A stretch of DNA of 64,000 nucleotides from Armatimonas rosea (GTDB lineage Bacteria > Armatimonadota > Armatimonadia > Armatimonadales > Armatimonadaceae). The notes beneath the pieces were generated by a model that had not been told where the DNA came from, searched no databases, and saw only the letters and a program-made list of their open reading frames with translations. Made by a program: the position numbers and the translations under genes. This document shows, one piece after another, positions 1,920 to 50,560 of this stretch; the first letter of the stretch is position 1; every line of letters starts with the position of its first letter. The stretch is from assembly GCF_014202505.1 (NCBI RefSeq), contig NZ_JACHGW010000001.1, positions 558,001 to 622,000 on the forward strand. Reading direction: 5' to 3'.

Positions 1920-4582
1920 GTGGGGATCCTTAGGTTCTGCCACTGGAGCCGCATCAGCCGTGCGATGGCTCCGGGATCGTCGTTCTGGCGTGCAAGGGCG
2001 AGTGCCTCATCGGTGGCCCGGCGTGCGCCTTGGGCATCCCTTTGCTGTCCCGCGATCCGTGCAAGGCGCTCGCTGGCGATCTGGCAGAGGCGCGTGTCCC
2101 CGTTTTGTTGGAACGAGGCGCGCGCATCGCTGACCAAGGCGCGGCCGGTGGCGAGGTCTCCCTGAGCGGCGGCGACAAAGCCGAGCTCTAGCAGCACCTC
2201 CCCGATCTCCGGGAGCTCACTCTCGACCGAGTCGCCGCAGAGCTGTGCCCGCTCGCGCTCGGCCCACTGCACCGCCCAGGGATCGTCGGCACAGACCTCC
2301 GCGAAGCGCTGGAAGGCGCTGCAGGCCTGCTCGAGATTGCCGGCATCGCGTGCGGCGAGGGCGCGCTGGAAGATCGCGGTCGGCTGGCGGGGGCAGGAGT
2401 TGGTGAAGCCCTCCTCGCTGCGTGCTAGGGAGAGCTGTGCCTCGGAGAGCCGCCCCAGCGAGACCTGGAGCCGTCCGAGGCCGAGCCATGCCTCTGCGGA
2501 GTCGGGGGCGTGGGTCAGCGCGGCTTCGAGGAGCTGGGTTCCCTCCTCCGCGAGGCCGGTCGCGTTCCAGAAAGGCCAGGCTGCCGCAAGCAGCGACACG
2601 GCCTGCTCCGGGGTGCTGTACTGAAGCGCGGCGAGCAGGTTCTCCCGCTCTTCGTCGAAGAAGCGGAGCGCGAGCTCGCTGTGGGGCCCATCCCACTGGT
2701 TGCGTGCGTCTTGTGCCGCCCCCAGGAAGTGGCTGGCGTGGGCTGCTTTCCAGGTTGCGGCATGGGGAGGCTCGAGAAGGGTGCTGGCGTAGTCGCGGAC
2801 GGTCTCCAGGAGGGAGAAGCGGAGGCCGCTCTCGGTCTCTTGGGTCTGGAGCAGGGCTTGGCGCTGGAGAGCGGTGAGGGCGTGGGCCGCCTCGGGGCCG
2901 ACCACGGCGAGGGCCTGCTCTGCCCGGAAGCTGCCCCGGAAGAGCGAGAGTGCGGGCAGGGTCTGTCGGCTGTCTTCGTCGAGGAGCTCCACTGCGGCCT
3001 CCAGAACGGCGCGGAGTGATTTTTGGCGCTCGGGGATGCCGCGTTGTTCGGTGACCAGGACTTCGAAGCGTCGCTCCAGGCGCTCGACCATCTGGTGGGG
3101 GGTCAGGGACCAGGCTGAGGCCGCGATCAGCTCCAGTGCGAGTGGCCAGCCATCGAGCTTGCAGCAGAGCTGGGTGATGCTCTCGGCGTTGCGTGGGGTG
3201 AGCTGAAAGTCGGGGCGCACGGCCTGGGCACGGTCCAGGAGGAGCGCGACACTGGGGCAGCTTGCAAGGCCATCGAGGGTCGGGGTTGCGCTGGGGGTGG
3301 GGAGCGGGCCGACTGGCAGGACACGCTCTCCTGCAACCTGCAAGCTGACACGGCTGGTGACCACACAGGTCAGCGACGGGCAAGAGGCGAGGAGCTCTTG
3401 GAGCAGGCCCGCGAGCTCGTCGGTGCGCGTGTCGGCGCTGTCTAGGATCAGCAGGCTCTCTTGCTGGCGCAGGTGCTCAATACAGGCGGGGAGGGGATTG
3501 GCCTCCGCAGGGAGGTTCAGGCGAAGCGTATCGGCCAGGAGGCGCTCCAGAGGAAGTGTCTCTAGCAGCGAGAGAAACCAGACACGGCCGCTGTAGGTGC
3601 TACGGAGCGCCTCCCCGGCGGCTAGGGCCAGGCGTGTCTTGCCCACACCGCCTGGTCCCAGGAGGGTCAGGAGCCGTAGCTCGCCGGGGGCCAGCAGGAC
3701 AAAGAGCCGTGCGAGCTCGTCCTCACGCCCAAAAAAGCGGGTCAGCGGGGTGGGGAGGAAGCCGACATGCTTGGGGCGTTGTGGGGCGGGGCTGGGCTCT
3801 GGTAGGGGGGAGGACACAGGTTCTATAGGCATGGTGGGCGGGTCGATCTTGGCAGGAAGAATCGGGCTCTCGGGGGCGGGGAGGTGGCTGAGGAGCTCGC
3901 GGGTTCGCAGGGAGGGGGCTCGTCCTAGCTCTTCTCTCAGGAGCTCTTCCAGGTCCTCGTACTGGCGCTGTGCTTGTTCGGGAAAGCCTGCCTGGGCATA
4001 GAGAGTGATGAGAGTGCGGTGGTTTTCTTCGTCGAGGGGGTCGGTCTGGACGGCGTTACGGGCGGTGGCGAGTGCCTGCTCCCGCTCCCCGGCTGCCCAG
4101 AGCTGGGCGGTACGCTGGCGCAGGGCAAGGGCGAACCTATCGGCGAGGCGGCTCCGCTCCGCATCGATCCAGTCGTCGTACCAGCCGATGAGCAGTGGAG
4201 CTTTGTAGAGCGCGATCGCCTCGGCCCAGTCGCTGCGCCGGATCGCGTCCTCAAAGAGCTGGACATCGGTGGTGAAGGCCTCGGGGTTGAGGCGGAGGGC
4301 GCTACGGTCGGCGATTAAGACACGGCCCTGGATAATGCCCGGTGGTTCTAGCTGCTTGCGGAGAGAGTTTAGCGCGACACGGAAGCTATTGCGCTGGGCA
4401 TCTAACTCTGCCTCGGGCCAGAGCAGCTCTGCTAAGACCTCGCGTGCGTGAGGGCGTCCCGTAAAGTACGCGACATAGGCCAGGAGCGAGGCGATCTTGC
4501 GTGTGGCGAAGCGCGCGATGCTGCCATCGGCGCGTACCAGCTGGACGCCCCCCAGTAGTTCGATTCTCCACAGTTTATCCAC
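1916..4582 (-). CDS. AfsR/SARP-type transcriptional regulator (winged helix, BTAD, ATPase, TPR)
   Basis: This 888-residue protein starts with a GTG. The N-terminus (about 1-95) resembles the OmpR-type winged helix of SARP regulators. A BTAD helical region follows (about 100-245), then a proline-rich linker, a STAND-type ATPase with a P-loop (GPGGVGKT, about 308-316) and a Walker B-like LLILDSADT. Degenerate TPRs fill about 640-880. Proteins of this build couple ligand sensing and ATP hydrolysis to DNA binding. It lies 32 bp after the EpsI-like gene and overlaps the kinase gene by 4 bp, so it probably regulates or is co-regulated with the exosortase locus. A perfect DnaA-box 9-mer at the start codon (4575-4583) is taken as coincidence. 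No response-regulator receiver domain is present, so direct phosphorylation by the neighbouring kinase is not obvious. Confidence 0.88.
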   Translation of the reverse strand: MDKLWRIELLGGVQLVRADGSIARFATRKIASLLAYVAYFTGRPHAREVLAELLWPEAELDAQRNSFRVALNSLRKQLEPPGIIQGRVLIADRSALRLNPEAFTTDVQLFEDAIRRSDWAEAIALYKAPLLIGWYDDWIDAERSRLADRFALALRQRTAQLWAAGEREQALATARNAVQTDPLDEENHRTLITLYAQAGFPEQAQRQYEDLEELLREELGRAPSLRTRELLSHLPAPESPILPAKIDPPTMPIEPVSSPLPEPSPAPQRPKHVGFLPTPLTRFFGREDELARLFVLLAPGELRLLTLLGPGGVGKTRLALAAGEALRSTYSGRVWFLSLLETLPLERLLADTLRLNLPAEANPLPACIEHLRQQESLLILDSADTRTDELAGLLQELLASCPSLTCVVTSRVSLQVAGERVLPVGPLPTPSATPTLDGLASCPSVALLLDRAQAVRPDFQLTPRNAESITQLCCKLDGWPLALELIAASAWSLTPHQMVERLERRFEVLVTEQRGIPERQKSLRAVLEAAVELLDEDSRQTLPALSLFRGSFRAEQALAVVGPEAAHALTALQRQALLQTQETESGLRFSLLETVRDYASTLLEPPHAATWKAAHASHFLGAAQDARNQWDGPHSELALRFFDEERENLLAALQYSTPEQAVSLLAAAWPFWNATGLAEEGTQLLEAALTHAPDSAEAWLGLGRLQVSLGRLSEAQLSLARSEEGFTNSCPRQPTAIFQRALAARDAGNLEQACSAFQRFAEVCADDPWAVQWAERERAQLCGDSVESELPEIGEVLLELGFVAAAQGDLATGRALVSDARASFQQNGDTRLCQIASERLARIAGQQRDAQGARRATDEALALARQNDDPGAIARLMRLQWQNLRIPT

Positions 4583-4614
4583 AATAGTGTTTTCAGCGAT
4601 TTCTATGTAGTTCT

Positions 4615-48931: not shown

Positions 48932-49513
48932 CTACGAAAGTGTTACCGTCAGCCCATTGAAGCGATTGGCGGCCGCTAAGACCCCCTCGCTCAGCCAGAG
49001 CTCGGCGGCGCCCATGGCGGCGATGAGCACTTCGTCCATGAGCTTGCGGTCCTGTGGGCCAAAGACCGAGAGCACCCAGTTTACCTGCTCGCTCCCCGCG
49101 GCGGGCGGTGCTCCCACGCCGATCCGCAGGCGCGGGAAGTCATCGCCCTCCAGCTTGGCGATCAGGTCCTTAAGCCCGTTCTGCCCGCCTGCGGAGCCGC
49201 TCCCGCGCAGGCGCATCCGCCCCGGCGGCAGGTTGATATCGTCGCAGACCACGAGAATATCTCCCCGCTCCACTCCCTCTTTGCGAGCGATCGCGCTCAC
49301 GGCATCGCCGGAGAGGTTCATGTAGGTCTGGGGCTTGACCAGCATCACGCTCTGTCCCGCGATCGTCCCACGCCCCGTGACCGCCTTGTCGCGGCGGTTG
49401 GTCAGCGCGATCCCATGGGCCTTGGCGAGGGCATCGACCAGCTCGAAGCCGATATTGTGCCGTGTCTTGGCATAGGTTGTTCCGGGGTTTCCCAGCCCCA
49501 CGATCAGTTTCAT
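48932..49513 (-). CDS. pth: Peptidyl-tRNA hydrolase
   Basis: A 193-residue enzyme releasing peptides from stalled peptidyl-tRNA. MKLIVGLGNPGTTYAKTRHN (catalytic His19), QTYMNLSGDAV, VCDDINLPPGRMRLRGSGSAG and HNGLK-like QNGLKDL are typical. The ATG at 49513 is where the family begins; an in-frame extension upstream would cover the DnaA-box cluster and is rejected. GATAGT (49520-49525) lies 6 bp upstream as a possible -10. Confidence 0.95.
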   Translation of the reverse strand: MKLIVGLGNPGTTYAKTRHNIGFELVDALAKAHGIALTNRRDKAVTGRGTIAGQSVMLVKPQTYMNLSGDAVSAIARKEGVERGDILVVCDDINLPPGRMRLRGSGSAGGQNGLKDLIAKLEGDDFPRLRIGVGAPPAAGSEQVNWVLSVFGPQDRKLMDEVLIAAMGAAELWLSEGVLAAANRFNGLTVTLS

Positions 49514-49528
49514 GTTTACACTATCGCC

Positions 49529-49565
49529 TGTGGATAACCTGTGGATAAGTGGCACGTTATCCACA
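49529..49565. promoter_or_regulatory. Cluster of three perfect DnaA boxes
   Basis: TGTGGATAA occurs at 49529-49537 and 49540-49548, and its complement TTATCCACA at 49557-49565, all exact 9-mers. Spacing is 2 and 8 bp, two boxes in one orientation and one opposed. The cluster lies just upstream of pth, between it and the small membrane gene. It could be a DnaA-responsive promoter, a DnaA titration site, or part of a replication origin; dnaA and dnaN are not in the window. Confidence 0.75.
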
Positions 49566-49567
49566 GG

Positions 49568-49678
49568 CTAGTGCTTCACCCCGCTGGCGTCCTTGAGTGC
49601 CGCCCCAGTCACCATGACGATCATGATGAGCATCAGTACCCCGAAGTAGATCAGGCTATTGCGGATTTTTTTATCCAT
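49568..49678 (-). CDS. 36-residue single-span membrane peptide
   Basis: From the ATG at 49678 the peptide MDKKIRNSLIYFGVLMLIMI continues through a single transmembrane helix to a short polar tail ending DASGVKH. A TAGCAT box (49686-49691) is 7 bp upstream, like the leaderless starts elsewhere. It ends 2 bp before the DnaA-box cluster. A longer in-frame start at 49750 is less likely. No family is known to me; such small membrane peptides are often missed. Confidence 0.6.
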   Translation of the reverse strand: MDKKIRNSLIYFGVLMLIMIVMVTGAALKDASGVKH

Positions 49679-49685
49679 GGGCTCT

Positions 49686-49691
49686 ATGCTA
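49686..49691 (-). promoter_or_regulatory. -10 box (TAGCAT) for small membrane peptide
   Basis: On the minus strand TAGCAT ends 7 bp before the ATG at 49678, supporting that start. Confidence 0.4.
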
Positions 49692-49750
49692 CCATCTGAG
49701 TAAACATTTGGGCTCTGCCTGCGTCTGGGTTTGCAAAGGAAACCCAGCAC

Positions 49751-50560
49751 ATGTCACACACACTCTTACCGGTCCAAAAAGATATCGCCTATGGCTCTGA
49801 TCCCGCGCAGAAGCTCGACATCTACCCTGCCTCGCGCGAGCAGAGCGGGGGGGCGCCGGTGGTGATCTGGGTGCACGGCGGGGGCTGGCGCAACGGCGAC
49901 AAGGACAATCGTAGCGGCACGGCGCTCTGCAAGACCTGGAGCCAGGAGGGGATTGTCACCGTGAACCTGAACTACCGACTGACTCCTGCGGTGGTGCATC
50001 CTGCCCATATCCAGGATATCGCGGCGGGTGTGGCCTGGGTGCAGGGCAATATCGCCAAGCACGGGGGGAACCCACGGCGCCTCTTCTTGCTGGGGCACTC
50101 CGCGGGCGCGCACCTCGTGGCCCTAGTGGCGACCAACCCCATCTACCTCAAAGTCCATGGCCTCACCCCCAAAGCGACCCTTGCCGGGGTCATGCCCATC
50201 GACACGGCGAGCTACGACCTCAACGCGACCCGGAGCCCTCTGGTTCGCAAGATGATCCGCGATGCCTTTGGCACCGACCGTGCGGTGCTGGAGGAAGCCT
50301 CGCCGCTCCCACAGGCCCGGAAAAACCGCGAGAGCTGCCCCCCATTTCTGATCGCTACCGCCAAGCAGCGCCTGGAGGCCGTGCAAGAGTCCCAGGCACT
50401 CGACAAGGCGCTCCCAAGCAGCAAGCTAATCCTGCAAGACTACCCCGGCAGCGGCCAGCTTGCCGCCCACGGACAGATTGCCAAGGACCTGATGGACCTC
50501 AAGAACCCCATGACCGTCCAGCTGCTCGCGTTCGTGCAAAAAAGCCGCCCAACCTCCTGA
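49751..50560 (+). CDS. Alpha/beta hydrolase (carboxylesterase-like)
   Basis: A 269-residue esterase/lipase-type hydrolase without signal peptide. The oxyanion motif WVHGGGWRNGDK, the nucleophile elbow LGHSAGAHL and a late AAHGQIAKDL with the catalytic His fit the BD-FAE/kynurenine formamidase-like group. The substrate is a small ester or amide. AAAGGAAA precedes the ATG by about 10 bp. Confidence 0.9.
   Translation: MSHTLLPVQKDIAYGSDPAQKLDIYPASREQSGGAPVVIWVHGGGWRNGDKDNRSGTALCKTWSQEGIVTVNLNYRLTPAVVHPAHIQDIAAGVAWVQGNIAKHGGNPRRLFLLGHSAGAHLVALVATNPIYLKVHGLTPKATLAGVMPIDTASYDLNATRSPLVRKMIRDAFGTDRAVLEEASPLPQARKNRESCPPFLIATAKQRLEAVQESQALDKALPSSKLILQDYPGSGQLAAHGQIAKDLMDLKNPMTVQLLAFVQKSRPTS

Follow-up and report, generated by a model that had tools for sequence, protein, structure and literature searches.

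Clusters of DnaA boxes outside oriC are a known kind of element. Those of Bacillus subtilis (DBCs) were reportedly described by Okumura et al. in 2012, and a DnaA-box cluster of Streptomyces is said, in the title of Smulczyk-Krawczyszyn et al. (2006), to be involved in the regulation of chromosome replication. Two papers on B. subtilis also treat such clusters (PMC5295017, PMC4447404), and the joint removal of six of them led to early initiation (PMC5295017). Escherichia coli carries datA and DARS (PMC5742627, PMC8682772, PMC12371093): the DARS core has its box I opposite to boxes II and III, and the essential boxes of datA all point the same way, an IHF site separating them (PMC5742627). The titration of DnaA by chromosomal boxes was proposed long ago, its direct test in E. 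coli being only recent (PMC12371093). Concerning the Armatimonadetes, a single search turned up one paper that mentions DnaA boxes, of which it reports only a few in Fimbriimonas (PMC4072686); our literature search retrieved no report of triplets like those described below in Armatimonadota.

The locus compared here with these systems belongs to Armatimonas rosea and lies in a window of 64,000 nucleotides, the whole stretch of DNA analysed (C1:558001-622000, C1 being one of the 19 contigs of a 6.33 Mb genome). The earlier note on this window had placed three exact DnaA boxes in 37 bp upstream of pth, and a rescan for exact 9-mers confirmed these coordinates. The features of the locus, in positions of the window, are:

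49529..49537, minus strand: DnaA box 1, perfect TTATCCACA, preceded by G (-1) and followed by GG
49540..49548, minus strand: DnaA box 2, perfect, in tandem with box 1 at 11 bp
49557..49565, plus strand: DnaA box 3, perfect, in inverted orientation, 17 bp from box 2
49526..49538, no strand: left arm (13 bp) of an inverted repeat made of boxes 1 and 3 with their flanks, read from the sequence
49556..49568, no strand: right arm (13 bp) of the same repeat, likewise read from the sequence
48932..49513, minus strand: pth, peptidyl-tRNA hydrolase (Pfam PF01195, E 7e-64), ATG at 49511-49513, the nearest box starting 15 bp before it
49568..49678, minus strand: 36-codon ORF with a hydrophobic stretch, its N-terminal half similar in the congener

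Start-to-start spacings are thus 11 and 17 bp and the strand order is --+, i.e. divergent; the 13-bp inverted repeat is perfect. Both genes being on the minus strand, 54 bp separate the stop of the 36-codon ORF from the ATG of pth, and the boxes cover 37 of them (49529-49565), 15-51 bp 5' of the ATG. The small ORF had no match in a Pfam search and was not seen ahead of pth in the four other genomes of the family that were read. In the congener, prs lies directly 5' of the 36-codon ORF, which is followed by pth; in the window, a plus-strand alpha/beta-hydrolase gene separates prs from the ORF (49568-50560).

That three such boxes could not meet by chance, as the earlier note had held, is borne out at several scales. 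Counting boxes with at most one mismatch, the window contains 15, where 100 shuffles gave 3.64 on average and never more than 9, and the whole genome contains 55 perfect 9-mers, against 9 for a reversed-pattern control. When the 40 perfect boxes found outside oriC were placed at random, no triplet within 60 bp arose in 200,000 trials. The pth cluster is moreover one of seven satellite triplets and is kept in the congener.

A profile search returned a single Bac_DnaA match in the genome, at C1:172136-172618; the window starting only at C1:558001, the earlier note was right that dnaA is absent from it. This dnaA is a 605-residue ORF with the N-terminal, ATPase and C-terminal domains of DnaA. Beginning 180 bp after it, 15 perfect boxes (C1:173416-173761) sit in an 871-bp stretch of 48% GC ahead of the next ORF, which we designate the oriC cluster. 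The pth triplet, with its three perfect boxes in 37 bp, is 434 kb from this dnaA-oriC region and hence an extra-oriC cluster. It is also one of several, as the 40 boxes outside oriC in the whole genome divide into 19 solitary ones and 21 arranged in seven triplets, five of which are kept in the congener:

C1:607529, order --+: triplet 1, intergenic, before pth
C1:899817-899867: triplet 2, inside a CBM9-like gene (L033:4818-4868)
C1:1252977: triplet 3, where an N-acetyltransferase (Acetyltransf_2) gene and a GDSL lipase gene face each other, the boxes overlapping the 3' end of the former
C2:52541: triplet 4, intergenic, with divergent enolase-like and TPR genes on either side
C2:156938: triplet 5, intergenic, with a tRNA-Leu gene on one side and an M16 peptidase gene on the other
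C2:449566: triplet 6, ahead of a flavodoxin-like gene and overlapping an MFS gene at its 3' end
C8:114025: triplet 7, ahead of a GH127 gene and overlapping, at its 3' end, a gene whose HEAT match is below threshold

Box spacings in the triplets are 11, 12, 17 or 21 bp, and four strand orders occur, namely --+ (one triplet), +++ (one), minus for all three boxes (two) and ++- (three, with spacings of 12 and 11). Four of the seven triplets are in or overlap coding sequence, three of these at gene 3' ends, and Pfam annotation of the flanking genes revealed no common theme. Since the contexts are unrelated and partly coding, the common feature is the DNA itself. The boxes are in fact more alike than the 9-mer requires: a G at -1 precedes 15/15 oriC boxes and 20/21 satellite boxes (the exception being box 2 of the pth triplet) against 0/19 solitary boxes (Fisher p 7e-14, with boxes that are partly non-independent as adjacent ones have spacer bases in common). 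The 12-mer GTTATCCACARG accordingly occurs without mismatch 32 times in the genome; oriC accounts for 15 of these copies and the triplets for 17, with none elsewhere. Such extended boxes may select for tighter DnaA affinity. An avoidance of full boxes outside clusters, which the lack of G at -1 in all 19 solitary boxes might evoke, is not claimed, because the congener (G001) has eight solitary copies of the 10-mer GTTATCCACA. The triplets were also considered as copies of one mobile repeat, an idea rejected as their order and spacing vary and their similarity is confined to the extended boxes and short spacers. In the stretch L035:3235-5082, an ORF resembling rnpA by eye is found some 1.4 kb away from the C2:52541 triplet; in other genomes, rnpA often neighbours dnaA.

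The earlier note had suggested looking for the cluster upstream of pth in relatives. It is present in the congener with identical order and spacing and with 27/27 box bases unchanged; the five base differences counted by eye in the 54 bp ahead of pth all fall outside the boxes, whereas 83/192 third codon positions of pth differ between the two species. When the 500 bp upstream of pth were inspected in 43 of 55 pth-bearing relatives, the triplet was found in the congener only, the 42 other regions being without a cluster and two of them having one box with one mismatch. Across the genome, five of the seven triplets have counterparts at matching positions in the congener, with 15/15 boxes perfect there and order and spacing kept at 5/5 shared sites; this comparison draws on a single congener. 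These five, pth and four matched by similarity of flanking DNA (L033-L053, L034-L055, L037-L052, L038-L054), are all the triplets that the congener has. At the site matching C2:52541 it has one box and no triplet, so that triplets seem to grow or shrink, and at the site matching C2:156938 the two flanks fall on separate contigs and the stretches inspected contain no perfect box.

At the scale of the phylum, 27/291 genomes, A. rosea included, have perfect boxes paired in the same direction at a distance of 11 to 23 bp. Among the matches listed, only A. rosea and its congener have pairs at more than two loci, two genomes (G030, G186) have them on two contigs and most have them on one. With the looser TTWTNCACA at 11-bp spacing, pairs occur in 6/41 genomes, again at more than two loci only in A. 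rosea and the congener. Within the sensitivity of these scans, which covers these box types and spacings only, the triplet set is genus-specific.

The triplet at C1:899817 is an in-frame insertion in a conserved gene, as judged from comparison with its homologues. Its boxes translate as PVDN three times within a 20-residue stretch that is common to A. rosea and the congener and absent from 8/8 homologues covering that place (L234-L240, L242; L241, which ends before the insertion place, was dropped). Such a stretch can therefore arrive within a gene. All 12 box codons are identical between the two species, while 79/308 third positions changed across the CBM9-like gene; at that rate, 12 codons would all escape a third-position change with a probability of about 0.03, which is weak alone. 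A triplet maintained within a coding gene shows how strongly such sites may be favoured.

We propose, with a probability of roughly 0.55, that the pth feature is a predicted high-affinity DnaA-binding triplet in a genus-specific set of seven sinks. Among the possibilities raised by the earlier note, that of a second DnaA-binding locus is the one that gains support, the locus being one of seven satellite triplets and kept in the congener. The 21 satellite boxes, against 15 in oriC, would bind DnaA cooperatively and, as sinks, would hold free DnaA below the initiation threshold until enough has been made; once replication copies the sites, the sink would double and re-initiation would be delayed. 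The boxes are mostly about one or two helical turns apart and are not tied to promoters. Full-motif boxes being almost restricted to the seven triplets and oriC, few sites hold most of the predicted sink. No second, Hda-type Bac_DnaA protein was detected in the genome with the Bac_DnaA model, which may miss some Hda, nor was YabA found by a search that matched its B. subtilis and Lactococcus controls. Given this, and the 21 boxes against 15, titration is a plausible main brake on initiation. A wider proposal, which we put forward tentatively and regard as possible though doubtful, is that initiation would be controlled by DNA only, without detected Hda or YabA: seven triplets, placed wherever the chromosome tolerates them (in one case as 20 codons inserted in frame into a conserved protein gene) and having more boxes in total than oriC, would set the initiation mass by titration, the convergent ones possibly being reactivation sites. 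Two observations go against sinks. At two of the seven sites the congener has no triplet, and no other examined relative has the set, so that its role must be dispensable in the phylum; besides, sinks need no fixed order or spacing, yet both are kept at every shared site. With relatives devoid of triplets, the genus offers a clean natural test of titration.

Compared with the described systems, the set resembles the DBCs of B. subtilis in consisting of several dispersed box clusters outside oriC; unlike them, the Armatimonas triplets are uniform, carry an extended motif, are partly coding and belong to another phylum. With datA it has in common boxes of high (here predicted) affinity far from oriC, which at datA restrain initiation, and a single direction in three of the seven triplets; datA needs an IHF site, and the pth triplet, with its mixed directions, departs from the one-direction arrangement. 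Unusual in this set are the insertion within a coding gene and the uniformity of the triplets.

Several other explanations have to be weighed against the sink reading. That replication might start at pth, from a second origin or from a displaced one (in the earlier note, an origin set apart from dnaA), has the clustering of three strong boxes as its sole point in favour, and we reject it as extremely improbable. The 15-box cluster, AT-rich DNA and the turn in GC skew are all beside dnaA, at C1:173 kb: minimum GC per 50 bp falls to 0.24 near the oriC boxes versus 0.38 near the pth cluster, a value at or below which 26% of the 104 segments of the window lie. GC skew, which the earlier note had proposed for locating an origin, is negative in three of the four C1 stretches left of the oriC boxes (-0.036, +0.042, -0.006, -0.051) and positive in 19 of the 21 to their right, window included (the other two being -0.007 and -0.009). 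The sign thus changes across the dnaA cluster (-0.051 to +0.025), 434 kb away, and is positive on either side of pth (+0.048 at 510 kb, +0.027 at 680 kb). Coarsely sampled, and with only a short left side to read, skew supports rather than proves an oriC at dnaA; taken with the boxes and the AT-rich DNA, these data support an oriC adjoining dnaA. Very unlikely, too, is a hairpin in the pth mRNA, formed by the inverted repeat, that would control translation or end transcription. The fold computed for the pth strand does reach -32 kcal/mol (z -5.8), which none of 200 shuffles equalled, but the same 9-mers make up six other triplets and oriC, including one-direction triplets unable to fold in this manner, the outer stem past the boxes is by eye not kept in the congener, and neither a terminator scan nor an Rfam search gave a match at the locus; this candidate was set aside on these grounds.

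DnaA bound at the boxes might otherwise repress pth or time it with the replication cycle, the conservation then serving regulation, a reading that we hold to be rather unlikely. The boxes lie immediately ahead of pth and are kept in both species despite different upstream genes, and two further triplets (C2:52541, C2:156938) are intergenic before genes; against this, a consensus scan from 49450 to 49800 gave no promoter, and hence none overlapping the boxes (some -10-like stretches are visible by eye), 42 other pth genes have no boxes, and the flanking genes have no common theme. With more than half of the triplets in or over coding sequence, three at 3' ends, regulation of neighbours cannot be the common role. 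A control of pth and of the 36-residue membrane gene by DnaA, as suggested in the earlier note, is therefore locally possible and fails as a general role; under the sink reading, DnaA held at the boxes may incidentally reduce pth transcription too, since they take up most of the space ahead of the gene and leave hardly any room for a promoter. A further alternative, quite unlikely, is that the triplets, or the three ++- ones, act like DARS (ADP release) or datA (ATP hydrolysis) and are not plain sinks. The conserved order and spacing at shared sites would suit such switches, and the ++- triplets reproduce the box order of the three-box DARS1 core, in which one box converges on two others in tandem, though at spacings of 12/11 instead of 14/12. 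The E. coli stretch compared (bioD-uvrB), which we take to be DARS1, has its core in the order + - - at 14 and 12 bp; a DARS2 core was not found in the stretch examined for it. The pth triplet is divergent, opposite to that core, and differs in spacing, so that the reactivation site envisaged in the earlier note does not fit it; only three other triplets have the order. Four different orders among seven triplets, and a ++- arrangement found near dnaA in 90/119 loci of other bacteria among the matches listed, also argue against switches. The ++- order is a common way of arranging boxes and thus not DARS-specific; a DARS-like action of the three ++- triplets is possible.

These 119 listed loci are, by their titles, mostly from Lachnospiraceae. 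The exact arrangement of box, 2 bp, box, 3 bp and inverted box recurs (L061-L179) in many Lachnospiraceae and some Bacillales, at loci that have a dnaA match, and also in Elusimicrobia, Spirochaetia and Treponema, at loci whose retrieved DNA has none. In the window itself, a fourth perfect box, solitary and without G at -1, lies at 4575, with a one-mismatch box 11 bp before it (4564-4583).
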